A stretch of DNA of 64,000 nucleotides from a virus. Below, in pieces: positions 471 to 53,404 of the stretch. The stretch covers positions 1-64,000 of IMG/VR virus record IMGVR_UViG_3300046336_000034, one strand, 5' to 3'. The notes beneath the pieces are model-generated. The model searched no databases, was not told the DNA's origin, and was given only the letters and a program-made list of their open reading frames with translations. Made by a program: the position numbers and the translations under genes. Position 1 is the stretch's first letter. Each line of letters opens with the position of its first letter.

Positions 471-2354
471 TTACTCTGTCTTGTAACGATTGATTAAATA
501 TTCTGTCGATACGAAAGCTGGTTCAGCAAAGCCATCTTTAGCTTGGTATAACATCACAATTCCACGGAAATGATTGTTCCCTTGATGTCCCTTGTATGCC
601 TCCTTAAAAGGGTAACTAGCTCCTGCGACAATGCCAATCCGCATTGTGTTGTCCAGCACAGGCTGAATTGCCACGTCAAGGGTCTGCTTGTGTCCTACAC
701 AAAAGGATACACCAACAGCCTTCAACTGACTAGCTGCATTGCCGCCATACGGTTTCCCATTAAAAGGATTGGATAAGTAATGTACGAAATTGATGCCTTG
801 AATATTAACAGGTTTAAGGAAGTCATGTACCTCCCAGTCTTTTTCTAGGTCAAGTAGATGATAGCCGATGAAGCCTTCGAGTTCAGTATTCTCAGAGGGT
901 AGTCGCATAAGACGACAGTTGCCTGTGAAACTAACAACTCCGTCCCTTCGCGTTATAAGTGTGCCATTTTTAGTCTGGATTGCAACAACTGTTCCCTTAG
1001 CAGCAACTTCCTCCACCTTGACATATCGTCTGTTAAATACGCCATTGTCAGCTATAGAGCAACGATACTGTACCTTTGTTTTTGACGGATTAAAACCTGA
1101 CCTGTTCACACCACTATTGAACTTGAAAGGTACTCCATTCATAATACAGGCGAACTGTAGTACATCAACATCTGATTCTGAAGTAGTGACCCATGACAAC
1201 TTGTTGTAATGTCGGCAACCATCTGTCCTACCAATCTCATCTAGTACGATGCGAAGCTGTCGCTCATTCATGTTTTTCCAAATCAGAGGGAAATTTTTAA
1301 CACCGTTTAGTTGCTCAAATATCTTACGTGCAGCGTCAGCATACATGCAAATATAAAACGGCTGTAGATTATTCAGGTTGCTTTTAGTTGCTTCCCGTAG
1401 AGTAAACTCAACTCCCATTCGAGTTAACAATCCCTTCAAGTAATCAATTTTTCTTGTTTTACTGAGCTTAAACTGAACTCGTTTGTTTCTTTCTGATATG
1501 TCAACAATAGTACCATCTGTCACCACCCACGTCAGTAGACGTAACTCATCATCAGATAGTGATACACCGACTTGATTATTCTTCACAGAATACTTCATTC
1601 TTGTCTGATTAACCTTCTCTCCAATAAAGTCCTTAACTGGTACTAATTGATTGTCTACATCTATACGGTGAGTAATAGACACTAACTCATTACTGAAGTC
1701 ACCTTTCACGGAAATAAGTTCCGTGTCGGCAATTGACAGACAATGTAGTGGTTTATCGTAGCTCACAACAGAGGTGGACTGGTCATAACTAGCTACATCA
1801 CTATCTCGGGTAATGTCGGATGCCTTAACCCACCCACTACTGCATAATACCTCTGTAGATTTTTCTACACATTCGTGATTTCCAAGAGTGAACACCATAC
1901 GGGGATTGTAATCAGTGTTAGTCTTTTGGTAATCTCGCAGAGGCGCAAGTAGTCGTTCCATACCTTTGATACCAGCCTCAAGGTCTAGGCGTAGTCTTCG
2001 TCCTTCAAAGGATAACTTCCCTTTATCGTATGAGCTAAGAGATGGAAAGTCAAAAAAATCTCCAGCGTTTACAACTACGTCAGGTTTCTTGTCAATAATG
2101 TATTGACCAATCGCATCAAGGTATTCTAAGTCTTCATTAGGCTTCACCTGACAGTCGGGAACAAACATAATTGTCAAAGCTTCCTTCTGTTCAGTTTTTG
2201 CAAGTTCATCCACTTCTTGATTACGCCCAAGAATGTAATTCACTGTGGACTTTTTCGTTTCTGAACCAAGTACAGATAGTGCAATCTTACGTGAAGCCCA
2301 CCCTAGACCTGAAAGAGTTTTAATTTCATTAATAATCTTATCGCTGTAACTCAA
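471..2354 (-). CDS. Metallophosphoesterase (calcineurin-like), interrupted by an intein
   Basis: The 627-residue precursor has a helix-turn-helix-like N-terminus (about residues 5-45) followed by a calcineurin-type phosphoesterase domain: DCQ at 67-69, NAGDFFD at 96-102 and the metal-ligand motif GNHE at 158-161. An intein occupies residues 162-479, so the mature enzyme would be 309 residues; its C-terminal part contains FVHYLSNPF and GHKQT, the late histidine motifs of the fold. Phage enzymes of this kind act as DNA exonucleases or phosphatases in DNA metabolism, which fits the neighbouring exonuclease and resolvase. The start is TTG (2352-2354) with AGGAGG six bases upstream; TTGA overlaps the preceding stop. 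Activity must require protein splicing because the intein splits the catalytic motif. Confidence 0.9.
   Translation of the reverse strand: MSYSDKIINEIKTLSGLGWASRKIALSVLGSETKKSTVNYILGRNQEVDELAKTEQKEALTIMFVPDCQVKPNEDLEYLDAIGQYIIDKKPDVVVNAGDFFDFPSLSSYDKGKLSFEGRRLRLDLEAGIKGMERLLAPLRDYQKTNTDYNPRMVFTLGNHECVEKSTEVLCSSGWVKASDITRDSDVASYDQSTSVVSYDKPLHCLSIADTELISVKGDFSNELVSITHRIDVDNQLVPVKDFIGEKVNQTRMKYSVKNNQVGVSLSDDELRLLTWVVTDGTIVDISERNKRVQFKLSKTRKIDYLKGLLTRMGVEFTLREATKSNLNNLQPFYICMYADAARKIFEQLNGVKNFPLIWKNMNERQLRIVLDEIGRTDGCRHYNKLSWVTTSESDVDVLQFACIMNGVPFKFNSGVNRSGFNPSKTKVQYRCSIADNGVFNRRYVKVEEVAAKGTVVAIQTKNGTLITRRDGVVSFTGNCRLMRLPSENTELEGFIGYHLLDLEKDWEVHDFLKPVNIQGINFVHYLSNPFNGKPYGGNAASQLKAVGVSFCVGHKQTLDVAIQPVLDNTMRIGIVAGASYPFKEAYKGHQGNNHFRGIVMLYQAKDGFAEPAFVSTEYLINRYKTE
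918..1871 (-). mobile_element. Intein with LAGLIDADG-type endonuclease domain
   Basis: This is an in-frame insertion encoding residues 162-479 (318 aa) of the phosphoesterase. It starts with Cys in a typical N-terminal splicing block (CVEKSTEVLCSSGWVKASDI), has a block-B-like segment (LVSITHRIDV), and ends VVSFTGN followed by Cys as the +1 nucleophile. The penultimate residue is Gly instead of the usual His. Between the splicing blocks lie two degenerate LAGLIDADG-like segments (LLTWVVTDG and VLDEIGRTDG), suggesting a homing endonuclease that could be active or decaying. The insertion lies immediately after GNHE, the most conserved motif of the host enzyme, a usual choice for inteins. Confidence 0.9.
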
Positions 2355-13942: not shown

Positions 13943-14026
13943 CTTGTAATCAAAATATGTCGCTTAAAAACAACAAGCAGGGTGGTAACAAATCACCTTT
14001 TCGGACTGCATATCCTAGCCTGTGTT
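13943..14026 (-). promoter_or_regulatory. Endonuclease-leader RNA element, copy C
   Basis: Three-way junction on the minus strand. P1: 13974-13978 with 14018-14022 plus AACA/TGTT beyond a one-base bulge. P2: 14003-14005 with 14013-14015. P3: 13981-13984 with 13994-13997, loop 13985-13993. Junctions are UA, GAAAA and CU. Part of the P3 loop (13988-13992) can pair, 5 bp with one G-U, with 13943-13947 at the AAGG ribosome binding site. P1 contains a G-U pair that would be A-C if read from the plus strand, supporting minus-strand RNA. Confidence 0.65.
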
Positions 14027-29096: not shown

Positions 29097-29178
29097 CCAT
29101 TAAAGAAACCATTACTAAATAAACAACAAGGCGGTACAGGTAATGACTCTGTATTTTCGGGAGCAACCCCTAGCCTTG
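29097..29178 (-). promoter_or_regulatory. Endonuclease-leader RNA element, copy D
   Basis: P1 CAAGGC/GCCTTG (29127-29132 with 29173-29178, 6 bp), P2 GGG/CCC, P3 TACAG/CTGTA (29135-29139 with 29149-29153), junctions UA and GAAAA, loop of nine. The loop can pair with GTAATG at 29110-29115 (6 bp) or, overlapping the ribosome binding site region, with 29097-29102 (6 bp with one G-U). Confidence 0.75.
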
Positions 29179-29190
29179 TTTCAACTAAAC

Positions 29191-46261: not shown

Positions 46262-46337
46262 CTTCGTAAAAGGCGTAATAATAAAAGCAAAAGGAAGTAG
46301 TTTACGAAGCTACTTGTCGGCTGCCGCCTATCCTTTG
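46262..46337 (-). promoter_or_regulatory. Endonuclease-leader RNA element, copy E
   Basis: P1 AAAGGA/TCCTTT (46290-46295 with 46331-46336), P2 GGC/GCC (46319-46321 with 46326-46328), P3 AGTAG/CTACT (46296-46300 with 46310-46314), junctions UA and GACA. The whole nine-base P3 loop (46301-46309) is a perfect complement of 46262-46270, which includes the GAAGG ribosome binding site: the strongest copy. Confidence 0.85.
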
Positions 46338-46354
46338 TTATAACTTAATAATAT

Positions 46355-47885: not shown

Positions 47886-49585
47886 TTAAGTGAACTCGCC
47901 TTGTTGAAGGGGTGCTGCACCTGTGGGGAGTTGGGTTGTTTGGAAGCCGAAAGAGGTTGCTTGGGTTAGGTCTGGGAGGGAGAAGGATGGTAAAGGTGCT
48001 TGCTTATTTAGTAAAACAAAACAATCTGAACTTGCATCTGCTTGGTCGTCCTTATAATTATTAGTACCGTCGAAGGTTTCGAGTTCCCTGTGGTAATCCG
48101 CATTCCACTCACCTTTGACAATGCTAACAAAACCACCTTCTGCTACAGCAGCAAACGGAGCAAACCGCTGTACCTTAGCTCTTGTAGGCTTAACTAATCT
48201 ACAAATAAAACCAGCTTCTAATAGACGCTTTTGTAATCCCTTGACATAAGCTCCACCACCTGCGGGGTCAAGAGGTAATCCGACAACTACGTCTGTGCCA
48301 TCTGCTCTTGCTGTATTGAGAATAAGTTCTTCAACAACATGTGCTCGGTCACGAATCCTAACGACATCTTCAACTGTATAAAGTGACTTAACATCTTTAG
48401 ACATCAAAACACCTGCTGTATAATCAGGATTTTTCGAGGAGCTTTCATTTGGTTTTGTGAAACTCAAATCCCAAGCCCTGACACGTTTAAGCACCTTTGC
48501 GGGAGGGTATAGAACTTCTATTACCCAGTGTTGTTTCCAGTAACCTGATGCACTCTCACGAGCGTACCAAGAACCGTAAAGTAGGCGTTCTTTTTCTACT
48601 AGGGGGAGGGCTTTTAGTTTAGAAATATAGCTTGGGTCAGCCTTCATCAACACAGGATTTGAGTAGATATTCCCCGGAATAAATTTGAAACTAAGTATCC
48701 CCGACTCACCACCTGTGCCATAGATTTTCTCAAGTTCTTCTCTTGAATCTGCCCATTCCATACCGCCACCAGATACCTGCACAAAATACCTGTTAGGATA
48801 CTCATCCCGTATTATTGGAATACCTCGTTCGTCAAGTGCGTACTCAACCCACTCACGCATAAAGGAATCGTAATCGGGATTACCTGTCGCAAAGATTTGT
48901 TTCTTAAAATCTACGGAGGTTGACCTGAGCCTAGAGAAAAGATAAACCACATTCTCCCTAGAGAGCTGTTGAATTTCATCGAAGCCGAGAAAATTAAGTT
49001 CTGCCCCCTGCCAGTTATATTTATCTGATGGGTTATCTAAGTAAGCAAACTTCAATGTTGCACCTGAACTGAAGATAATTTCTAAGTCTCGATTTCTTAC
49101 TTTTAAAGCTGGGTCAACCTTCTTATATAATTGAATTGCAGCATCAAATAAGCCACCACTGTTACTAAGTTGCTTTGTTGTTTTACGAAATATCACACCA
49201 CGAGTACGAGGATGGTGACAGAACTTCAGGAATGAGCCAAGCAAGCAAAATGATTTACCTGCTCCCGCTGCCATATTTGTTATGTGATTCGTTAATTCAC
49301 TCCCATATTTCTACGGGTATCGGACTATATCTTTAATCTTTCGATTACCTACTGTTTCGACTGCACTTGCAGCCTACAAGCTTTCGCTTTAGTCTCTACA
49401 CACGCCCAGAGATTACTCTCTTGCTTGGCTCGGTATTGCCCTCGGCTTTACGTTAGGGTTTCACCGAATTAAATAGGTTTTGCTCGGAGGCGCAATTCAC
49501 CACCGTAGTAAGTTATATCAGCATCACTCAAAAGGTACTGCTCTTGAGCTTTGGACGCTGGTGCAAACACTAATTCTTCATTCAT
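47886..49585 (-). CDS. terL: Terminase large subunit (spliced; two exons)
   Basis: Exon 1 is 49499-49585 (29 codons, MNEELVFAPASKAQEQYLLS ... YYGG) and exon 2 is 47886-49271 (461 codons). Joined they give 490 residues with Walker A GGAAGAGKS at 28-36, Walker B FLGFDEIQQL, an ATPase coupling region, and the RNase H-like nuclease (RAWDLS, LDPAGGG, DDQADASSDCF). The enzyme cuts and pumps DNA into the prohead. The intron falls between Gly29 and Ala30, inside the P-loop, so unspliced mRNA cannot give active enzyme. The ATG has AAGGAA nearby and overlaps the GIY-YIG gene by 8 nt. Exon 2 alone could be mis-annotated as starting at the ATG that is really the intron 3' end. Confidence 0.95.
49272..49498 (-). 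mobile_element. Group I intron (227 nt) in the terminase gene
   Basis: The minus-strand RNA shows the hallmarks of group I introns of the phage type: P1 with a U-G at the 5' splice site, the P3-P4-P5-P6 region (TTCGGTGAAACCC ... GGGCAATACCGAGCC), P7 GACTA/TAGTC with the signature AAGATATAGTCC, a P9 hairpin and a terminal G. It has no internal ORF. Exons join in frame to rebuild the P-loop. The neighbouring upstream GIY-YIG gene, which is outside the intron, is a candidate for its spread. Confidence 0.95.
49499..49585 (-). CDS. terL: Terminase large subunit, exon 1
   Basis: ATG at 49583-49585. The last codons GGT GGT supply the first two glycines of the Walker A motif. The 3' end CGGTGGT pairs with GCCTCCG of the intron guide to form P1, with a U-G pair at the splice site. 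Without splicing, translation runs nine-odd codons into the intron and stops at TAA. Confidence 0.92.
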
Positions 49586-50699
49586 CCGTTTCCTTTATTC
49601 TTATGTAGACATCTCGCATTTTATTTAATAAAACTGATTCAAGCTCCACAGGATAACATTCGGTGTAACCTGTTCTACGCATGTACTGTTTCATTTTTTC
49701 AACGGGAAGTTTATACTCTATGAAATCTGAGTGTATGTCCAGTTCAAGTTTTGTCGCAACTCTTCCATTAACAACAGGAAACGAGTAAAGCAGGTCTGAA
49801 GAACTTCCACCTAGTAAGCCATATTCTCTAATGCGGTTTTTTGGGTTTTTACCATAGCCGAGTTTTAAGAAAGTAAAATCAAATACCTTGATTTTAAATA
49901 GGTAGATATTACTTGCATTATTCAAATATGAATCGTTGCATTCGTGACAAATAAAATTATTACGAGTCACGCAAACTTTGTCTATATCCCTGATGTGCCC
50001 ACAGTCTACAAATCTATAACTTTTAAATCTCGATGGAAGCTCAAGGCTTGAGGCATCTCCTAGTAACTCTAATCCACGTTGCCTTACTAGCGCAAGATAT
50101 GCAACTTCTTCGCAGTCACTGCACTTAGGTACACCATGTTTAAGTCGGTGCTCTAACATATAGAAAGTATGCCCGCACTCTAAATGTCTGTACCTATTAT
50201 AACTGTTGGGGCGATTAAGATGCCTAGCTGCCTCTGGTGCTTTCTCTACTAACTCTATACCATATTTTGACGTTGCCAGTGTGAGCTTTGATTGCGTACA
50301 CTCATCACACACATAAGGAATGAGCGGAGGTTTTTGTAAATTACTGTAGAAAATATCTACCTCATGCCCACACTCTAGTACTTTGTACTTTCGTTTCAGA
50401 ACACACCCATCAGAGGAAGCCCCAAGACATAACAGACCTCTTAAAGACTCTGCTTCCTCTGCACGAGAGTCTGAGCACATCTTGCAAGTAAGTACTCCTT
50501 TACTATTACAAATATTACTGATTTGTCTAACCGTGGAATGACCACAGGTATTAAAAATATAGTTTCCGTACCACCTAGGTTTCTTTAAAAACATACTTAA
50601 TAAAGTAAGTCCACGTTTAGATGCGTATCCTTGATTTAATTTAAATCGTTGAACTTCCTTATTAGTGTTGTCATTGATTAAGTCTGTAAACATTCCCAT
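49578..50699 (-). CDS. GIY-YIG endonuclease with four tandem CGH zinc modules
   Basis: A 373-residue protein. Four modules of about 60 residues each carry a CGH (52-54, 110-112, 175-177, 233-235) followed by CxxC (72-75, 131-134, 193-196, 251-254), probably four zinc-binding units for DNA recognition. The C-terminal nuclease has IYLFKI (265-270), LKLGYGKNP (278-286), Arg289 and a GYTECY end of the T5orf172-type GIY-YIG clan. It lies between the small and large terminase genes with a leader RNA of type B, and its end overlaps the terminase start. It is probably a free-standing homing endonuclease. Confidence 0.88.
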   Translation of the reverse strand: MGMFTDLINDNTNKEVQRFKLNQGYASKRGLTLLSMFLKKPRWYGNYIFNTCGHSTVRQISNICNSKGVLTCKMCSDSRAEEAESLRGLLCLGASSDGCVLKRKYKVLECGHEVDIFYSNLQKPPLIPYVCDECTQSKLTLATSKYGIELVEKAPEAARHLNRPNSYNRYRHLECGHTFYMLEHRLKHGVPKCSDCEEVAYLALVRQRGLELLGDASSLELPSRFKSYRFVDCGHIRDIDKVCVTRNNFICHECNDSYLNNASNIYLFKIKVFDFTFLKLGYGKNPKNRIREYGLLGGSSSDLLYSFPVVNGRVATKLELDIHSDFIEYKLPVEKMKQYMRRTGYTECYPVELESVLLNKMRDVYIRIKETDE

Positions 50700-50704
50700 A
50701 TTAT

Positions 50705-50783
50705 CTCCTCAGATAATCCTCTAAAATAAAACAAACAGCGGGAGAATGAGGAGTTCTCTTTCGGGAATGACCCTAGCTGTTGT
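50705..50783 (-). promoter_or_regulatory. Endonuclease-leader RNA element, copy B
   Basis: P1 ACAA-CAGC/GCTG-TTGT with one bulge (50731-50739 with 50776-50783), P2 GGG/CCC (50763-50765 with 50771-50773), P3 GAGAA/TTCTC (50742-50746 with 50754-50758), junctions UA and GAAA. P3 loop CTCCTCA (50747-50753) is a perfect 7-bp complement of 50705-50711, TGAGGAG, which contains the ribosome binding site. Confidence 0.85.
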
Positions 50784-50795
50784 TAAAACTATTAC

Positions 50796-51185
50796 TTACT
50801 CTTCGACCTTGTCAATTTCTTTACCACCAGAAATCATTGTCAACGAAAATACAGGTGCTTTAGTAGTAGGTTGAATTTCCTGACCTTCTTGTTCATCGTA
50901 CTCAGTTGAATAAACATCTTTAATCAACTCCCGATAAATCTGAAGTACCAGAGCTGCACTCTTCAACTTATTCTGGTCTGAAGAATCTTCGCTTTCTATA
51001 ATTTCCATCACAGTTTTAACACTTGATGAAAGATGAGGCTTCAACTTACGGATTAAGCTAATAAATTCTCTATTTCTGACCTCTCGGTTTGTTAGAGGCT
51101 CGGCTTTACGTCCGTCAATCCTGCCTGACATGTTAATATTAGGGTCGGTATCACCACCCAGTAACTCGCGTCTCTTAAAAACCAT
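50796..51185 (-). CDS. Putative terminase small subunit
   Basis: A 129-residue protein before the large terminase. Helical centre (LTNREVRNREFISLIRKLKP, LKSAALVLQIYRELIKDVY) and an acidic C-terminus are consistent with a small terminase that recognises packaging sites. The call relies chiefly on position; the sequence shows no clear helix-turn-helix. GGATAGTATAG precedes the ATG. Confidence 0.55.
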   Translation of the reverse strand: MVFKRRELLGGDTDPNINMSGRIDGRKAEPLTNREVRNREFISLIRKLKPHLSSSVKTVMEIIESEDSSDQNKLKSAALVLQIYRELIKDVYSTEYDEQEGQEIQPTTKAPVFSLTMISGGKEIDKVEE

Positions 51186-52600: not shown

Positions 52601-52683
52601 CCTTAGTTAATAGGATAGTTACTAATAAAACAATCAGCAGGAAGGTAACTAATCTTCTTTTCGAGAATGACTCTAGCTGTTGT
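52601..52683 (-). promoter_or_regulatory. Endonuclease-leader RNA element, copy A
   Basis: P1 ACAA-CAGC/GCTG-TTGT with one bulged base (52630-52638 with 52676-52683), P2 GAG/CTC (52663-52665 with 52671-52673), P3 GAAG/CTTC (52641-52644 with 52654-52657), junctions UA and GAAAA, loop of nine. Loop TTAGTTA (52646-52652) pairs 7 bp with TAACTAA (52603-52609), abutting the AAGG ribosome binding site. Confidence 0.8.
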
Positions 52684-52739: not shown

Positions 52740-53404
52740 GTTAACCCCTCTATTTGAGCTTGATATAGAGGCTTGAGGGGTGTTATGAAAGAAAGATAAA
52801 GCAAGCCTTACCTCATCCTTTTCTACCGTGGGTAGATAGGAAAATTATTAGTGCTACCTTTACGTAGCTCGGTCAAACCTTCCAAAGCGGATTGGCTTCT
52901 GGTAAGACAGGTTACAACATCAACTGAGTGCGCTTCCAGCAGGTACTCCCACCGGTCTCAGTATCTTTGTTGTTCTTGAAGATAACCCTCACACATGGAA
53001 AGTCATTGTGTAAAGCGGAACTCATCTCCGTTGTTATCTAATTTAATTGGTGCTTACTCGCGCACAGTAAGATAAAAGGGCATACAAGACTTTATCATCG
53101 TTACTCGCAATATCCCCTGAAATTTTACGCATAATCATTTCACCAAACGGTTACTGACTCAGAGGTATAGGTGACGCTTTCACCCTACTCCCGAAAGCGA
53201 TTCGTTGAATCAGTATGCGTTTGGTAAATAAATTGGTGTCAGTAATGAACTCTGACTTGCACTCTATCGACTAAATGTTTCTTGTGGGTGCATCCGACAT
53301 AAATTACGAGTCATCACCTCGTCTCACCAAAACCAAGTACACCCTCTGAGCAGTATCCCGTTTCATTTAGGTCTTACTTTATCAGCACTCGATGTACTTG
53401 GTTT
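52740..53404 (-). ncRNA. Large structured non-coding RNA (GOLLD/ROOL-like candidate)
   Basis: About 665 nt without a coding frame, lying between tRNA-Asn and a terminator and transcribed from the promoter at 53737-53764. It is dense with helices: CCAAAACCAAGTAC (53327-53340) pairs perfectly with 53394-53407, closing a domain right at the tRNA 3' end; 53142-53149 pairs with 53218-53225; 53153-53160 with 53207-53214 (one pair is G-U only in minus-strand RNA); 53175-53181 with 53193-53199; plus CTTAC/GTAAG, GATAAC/GTTATC and CTGAG/CTCAG stems further on. Size, phage setting and adjoining tRNA recall GOLLD and ROOL RNAs, but I cannot match a consensus by eye. Confidence 0.6.

Follow-up and report, generated by a model that had tools for sequence, protein, structure and literature searches.

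A free-standing GIY-YIG gene beside an ORF-less group I intron in the Walker A codons of a phage terminase gene, compared across 141 terL loci

Background

Very few cases of collaborative homing have been worked out so far. One of them, MobE/nrdA of Aeromonas phage Aeh1, has the logic that we consider here for a terL locus, with an HNH nuclease and a gene other than terL. By definition, the nuclease of such a pair cleaves the allele that lacks the intron, and the intron guards against self-cleavage (PMC6083498; collaborative homing is reviewed in PMC3984707). The F-CphI/psbA pair of cyanophage S-PM2 (Zeng 2009; PMC6083498) resembles our locus in having a free-standing nuclease next to an intron-containing gene and an intron without its own nuclease; it differs in the endonuclease VII fold of the enzyme, in the target gene and in that cleavage and protection were measured for F-CphI.

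The closest precedent lies beyond these two pairs, which a sequence-only reading of the present DNA had named. In phage ICP1 a spliced terL was shown experimentally, a T5orf172 gene lies beside exon 1, and the arrangement was called collaborative homing, with nuclease turnover as the alternative (PMC10448857). We checked the ICP1 DNA and found that exon 1 ends in CFYGG(A), that exon 2 resumes with AGGGKS and that the nuclease gene overlaps exon 1. Common to ICP1 and the locus described here are an ORF-less Walker A intron and a free-standing GIY-YIG-type gene overlapping exon 1; the differences are that the ICP1 intron is inserted 3 nt away, that the ICP1 nuclease belongs to the CapR/T5orf172 type (phrog_681, 3e-81), the one here being of the CGH zinc-array type, and that ICP1 TerL is only a distant relative (about 26-31% identity to the intron-bearing relatives with which it was compared). 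The idea is thus not new, the same architecture having been published for ICP1; what is new is the comparison across terL loci.

Results and discussion

Anatomy of the locus

The window, which is the whole 64,000-nucleotide stretch analyzed, comes from an 87,008-base phage record (IMGVR_UViG_3300046336_000034). Its terL region contains the following features, given in the order in which they would be transcribed.

50796-51185, minus strand: small conserved gene (phrog_3900), likely terS-like, the upstream border of the nuclease slot
50723-50783, minus strand: leader RNA of 61 nt, a three-way junction, int-alpA-like (Rfam RF02996 and our own models R1/R2)
50700-50717, minus strand: predicted hairpin AUUAUCU-GAGG-AGAUAAU, the loop of which contains the ribosome-binding site (fold)
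49578-50699, minus strand: free-standing GIY-YIG (T5orf172-like) nuclease gene, 373 aa (ORF list and profile matches)
49938-50546, minus strand: four CxH...CxxC zinc-binding-like modules of that gene, residues 52-254 (alignments)
49581-49916, minus strand: C-terminal GIY-YIG catalytic domain (alignments; model pLDDT 91.5)
49499-49585, minus strand: terL exon 1 (MNEELVFAPASKAQEQYLLSDADITYYGG), 29 codons (relatives' frames and in-silico splicing)
49272-49498, minus strand: ORF-less group I intron, 227 nt, inserted after GGU, last base G (Rfam RF00028; boundaries from relatives and P1 pairing)
49485-49491, minus strand: internal guide sequence GCCUCCG, which pairs with exon CGGUGGU in P1 (read from the sequence)
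47886-49271, minus strand: terL exon 2 (AAGAGKS...) (ORF, Pfam, relatives and in-silico splicing)

We refer to the interval between the terS-like gene and terL as the slot. The sequence-only reading had the GIY-YIG gene ending 8 nt inside the start of exon 1, which is accurate to the base (its TGA occupies 49578-49580, and the terL ATG is at 49585); it had placed nuclease and intron less than 90 bp apart, and the distance from the intron to the nuclease stop codon measures 79 nt; and it had called the intron ORF-less, in agreement with the ORF list, which has no entry in 49272-49498. Two features were missing from it, namely the Walker A insertion point and the structured leader RNA before the nuclease gene.

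The intron matches Rfam RF00028 over its full length (65.5 bits, E 2.3e-14, above the gathering score of 50) and is the sole match to that family in the 87,008-base record. Exon 1 ends in ...TAC TAC GGT GGT and exon 2 starts with GCA GCG GGA GCA GGT AAA; intron-less relatives are continuous through ITFYGG-AAGAGKS at the same codons, and the intron therefore interrupts the Walker A codons, as GG/AAGAGKS (here and below a slash marks the point of insertion). In-silico splicing yields a single TerL frame of 490 aa, open throughout. The P1 pairing places a U.G at the splice site, and GCCUCC is kept in nearly all introns of this site. Judged by its sequence, the window intron is predicted to be self-splicing.

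The GIY-YIG protein

The zinc array described in the sequence-only reading is borne out, in that every ligand of the four CxH...CxxC modules is present in the window protein; the modules presumably form its DNA-binding part. The protein is likely to be an active nuclease, because the active-site Tyr (Y266), Lys/Gly (K279, G281), Arg (R289) and Glu (E319) are invariant in the alignments of the nuclease family. Pfam matches to T5orf172 and MUG113 fall slightly under their cut-offs (E 0.0017; 19.3 bits for PF10544, against a cut-off of 20), and the phrog_681 endonuclease family matches at 1e-7. The best VIA matches of the modelled C-terminal domain are Slx1 GIY-YIG nucleases (Z 5.6-6.4), and its viral structure matches are CapR/T5orf172 proteins; Foldseek gave no meaningful match with the whole protein and none in the PDB with the C-terminal domain alone, for which VIA gave GIY-YIG folds.

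Relatives resident in the slot (25-29% identical) occur in Curvibacter phage P26059A and in two of the sampled loci, L046 and L047. All three genes lie directly upstream of terL, and none of these terL genes has an intron there; a further relative, in Vibrio phage K566, lies elsewhere in its genome, away from the terL slot. Scans for close GIY-YIG relatives returned only the same phage and the contig with the P26059A gene, L046 and L047 having been reached via terL scans and not via nuclease protein scans. An N-terminal peptide resembling G(L/M/I)FT(D/G)LI is common to the window GIY-YIG protein, L104, L046 and the NUMOD4-HNH proteins of L007, L014, L108, L112 and L113; found as it is in unrelated slot nucleases, it may be left over from recombination or serve in docking.

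The phage record is unusually dense in homing-type genes, with 11 HNH_3 matches (10 above the cut-off, two in one frame) and at least two GIY-YIG genes over its whole 87 kb. An apparent in-frame intein (ECVEKSTEVLCSSG ... VVSFTGN/C) is seen in a metallophosphoesterase-like ORF (471-2354, minus strand).

terL loci across phages

From IMG/VR we collected by scanning 140 distinct terL loci that had 450 nt or more of sequence upstream, or 141 with ICP1; the IMG/VR contigs are fragments, and near-duplicates are left among these loci. A DNA search of the phage collection returned little except pieces of terL and tRNA regions. In 35 of the 141 loci the Walker A codons are interrupted by an intron-type insert without an ORF, mainly at GGU^GCN, with other insertions located 3 nt (ICP1) and 6 nt (L091, L108 and L111) downstream. 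Next to these sites, terL Walker A segments contain inteins, at GK/S in L017, L019, L026 and L051 and at SAG/C in L095 and L098. Two loci have a second group I intron deeper in terL (L022, 2954-3189; L024, 2725-2939).

The slot directly upstream of terL contains a nuclease gene in 25 of the 35 intron loci and none in the other 10. These genes are of seven kinds, assigned partly by eye (for L239, L253, L257 and L258, by reading the sequence): NUMOD4-HNH (12), phrog_374 HNH (5), HNH-AP2 (3), T5orf172 (2), and one each of zinc-array GIY-YIG, phrog_953 HNH and phrog_2081 HNH. Beside empty sites we find endonuclease VII-like genes (12), zinc-array GIY-YIG (3), T5orf172 (3) and eight others. The proposition that every slot nuclease implies an intron is ruled out by the endonuclease VII-like slot genes (0/12 with an intron), and these genes are, for the same reason, rejected as F-CphI-like partners.

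Over all 141 loci, introns occur with and without a slot nuclease in 25 and 10 cases, as compared with 26 and 74 for intron-less loci (p = 4e-6). The association is also seen in the loci that came from terL scans only (18/10 versus 25/73, odds ratio 5.3, p = 2.4e-4) and after clustering at 85% identity (13/8 versus 15/34, p = 0.018); on tree-independent pairs, of which about eight are for and two against (median p = 0.11), it is suggestive only. The link depends on the nuclease class. When NUMOD4-HNH genes are searched for by their own sequence, they turn up directly upstream of terL and are intron-linked 12:1, as compared with the endonuclease VII-like genes and their complete lack of introns; zinc-array GIY-YIG genes are intron-linked 1:3. 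The sole NUMOD4-HNH exception, L116, lacks the intron in terL, and its reading frame is broken exactly at the Walker A codons (about 595-690); the break is either a cleavage scar or a sequencing error.

Intron mobility and nuclease turnover

L188, L189 and L204 share an intron at 98% identity, TerL of L204 is only 34% identical to that of the other two, and sister loci have empty sites (L201 for L204, L187 for L188); the intron has therefore moved horizontally. Its neighbors in these three loci are an HNH-AP2 gene (L188), no nuclease (L189) and a phrog_374 HNH gene (L204). We take this as strong evidence that an intron lacking an ORF passes between distant phages and does not keep the same nuclease neighbor. 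L107 and L109 present a similar picture (HNH 72%, intron 78% and TerL 35% identical), and the similarity among NUMOD4-HNH genes follows that of the introns (rho 0.51) and not that of TerL (rho 0.19). In several sister pairs with different slots (L187/L188/L189 and L201/L204), exon 1 has diverged further than exon 2 (47-74% versus about 90% identity, the lowest value of 47% being that of L189/L187), as expected if the slot side is replaced in homing or turnover; pairs such as L014/L015 have no such excess divergence of exon 1.

The nearest relative of the window, L027/L002, has neither nuclease nor intron, and the TerL sister of the window, L005, has an intron (74% identical) and no slot nuclease. 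The window pair could therefore be a co-homed pair or a later arrival of the nuclease beside an older intron.

A shared leader RNA

The RNA before the GIY-YIG gene is one of five int-alpA-like leaders that lie directly upstream of nuclease genes of two unrelated folds in the same phage. The other four are as follows.

52622-52683, minus strand: int-alpA-like leader
46278-46338, minus strand: int-alpA-like leader
29115-29180, minus strand: int-alpA-like leader
13962-14025, minus strand: int-alpA-like leader

An abiF RNA match (RF03085, 40.7 bits, above the cut-off) is located at 52744-52780 on the same strand. The likeness of the window leader to int-alpA RNA is its match to RF02996 (33.2 bits, E 1.7e-4, somewhat below the gathering score of 35.8), and related leaders exceed this cut-off (L109, 45.2 and 39.1 bits; L007, 37.0 bits). 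The difference is that here the RNA precedes unrelated homing-type nuclease genes; we found no published link of int-alpA RNA to such genes in the literature searched. In four unrelated nuclease families the leader is followed by a hairpin with a GAGG loop (in other loci UUAUUCU-GAGG-AGAAUAA).

We built a model from seven such leaders, including that of L007, and its search in 80 sources gave 34 matches. With the window, L002 and L029 set aside there are 27 matches, one of which (L007) belongs to the training set, and every one of them stops 11-27 nt short of the start codon of a nuclease-like ORF (NUMOD4-HNH, HNH-AP2, endonuclease VII-like or GIY-YIG). Double changes are found in 10 of the 11 predicted pairs. 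This position and the covariation of the three-way junction rule out a plain terminator. In P26059A, an annotated isolate, two matches lie 22-23 nt before annotated endonuclease genes and a weak one precedes the GIY-YIG gene; in total, a leader of this kind stands before nuclease genes at about 30 places in related loci and this phage. The match in L063 (7083-7142) has no recognizable nuclease behind it and precedes a gene that in the window comes after an HNH gene, making it a possible remnant of a lost nuclease; a weak match in L029 also has no nuclease behind it. The R2 model gave zero matches in 66 distant HNH-centered loci and the ICP1 stretch, and the leader is therefore limited to this phage group in our sample.

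The leader may act in transcription or translation control by a shared factor. We see about an even chance that the unrelated homing nucleases (GIY-YIG, NUMOD4-HNH, HNH-AP2 and endonuclease VII-like) have in common one int-alpA-type 5' control RNA, often followed by a hairpin displaying the ribosome-binding site, and that one ORF-less Walker A intron family rides on whichever slot nuclease is present.

Proposed collaborative homing and its rivals

The sequence-only reading had proposed collaborative homing with terL as the target, and this proposal stands in part. A free-standing nuclease gene does lie beside an ORF-less intron, the arrangement recurs with unrelated nucleases, the intron is mobile without a nuclease of its own and the nearest relative is empty; against it, the P26059A, L046 and L047 relatives sit beside an intron-less terL, and ten intron loci, including the sister L005, have no slot nuclease. 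We consider collaborative homing likely for the locus and, with less support, plausible for the window GIY-YIG enzyme itself.

For this enzyme the main rival is nuclease turnover, according to which the intron arrived in terL together with a different nuclease, such as a NUMOD4-HNH enzyme, that the GIY-YIG gene later replaced, so that we would be looking at a neighborhood and not at a working team. Several observations point this way: nuclease kind changes 38 times and intron state 19 times on the terL tree (a quick one), the near-identical introns of L188, L189 and L204 lie by different nucleases or none, the window intron is closest to that of a NUMOD4-HNH locus (L113, 78%), and the same alternative was put forward for ICP1 (PMC10448857). 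Turnover would, however, leave the enrichment of slot nucleases beside introns unexplained, and a new partner may still cut the same site; we regard it as possible, if somewhat unlikely.

It is improbable that nuclease and intron are independent residents of one hot spot, with the GIY-YIG enzyme targeting a different site in terL or terS, as in plain intronless homing, and having no relation to the intron. That three of the four slot members of its family are without an intron would fit, as would the endonuclease VII-like slot genes, which never accompany one; but nuclease and intron are both absent in the nearest relative, the intron linkage of NUMOD4-HNH is class-specific, and inteins occupy neighboring Walker A codons, which therefore appear to be a repeated cleavage target. 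Recruitment of the upstream nuclease for DNA packaging, as suggested for the HK97 HNH protein (a case discussed in PMC10448857), would suit a gene that adjoins terL, and yet this gene is absent from most relatives, the slot gene is replaced by unrelated families and identity in its own family is as low as 25-30%, making domestication very improbable.

The best explanation of the window pair, to which we give about an even chance, is that nuclease and intron homed together through cleavage at Walker A and that the partner is exchangeable. The GIY-YIG gene would then be a free-standing homing endonuclease gene residing in this recurrent slot, and its product would most likely cleave the terL of cassette-free phages in or close to the Walker A codons. 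Repair from the donor would carry over three things at once, namely the slot nuclease, exon 1 and the ORF-less group I intron. After insertion, the intron would split the Walker A DNA and so shield the resident terL from its own and other Walker-A-directed nucleases, and it could stay or move while GIY-YIG, NUMOD4-HNH, HNH-AP2 and other nucleases swap in the slot. The anatomy of the locus, the mobility of the intron, the turnover of nucleases and the lack of both elements in L027/L002 are observed, and cut site, protection and co-transfer are steps that we infer for the window enzyme.

Conclusion

The comparison brings together, on one conserved 30-nt target, three intron positions, two intein positions and no fewer than seven kinds of nuclease upstream of intron-bearing terL genes, with further kinds where the site is empty, among relatives similar enough for comparison. 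The locus makes it testable whether an intron can protect its host gene from many nucleases, whether one that lacks an ORF can persist with partners that change, and how one nuclease gene comes to replace another. If the reading of the leader is true, nuclease swaps would occur within a common, co-regulated cassette, and a leader RNA used in common would suggest that selfish genes are jointly controlled via a factor yet to be found.
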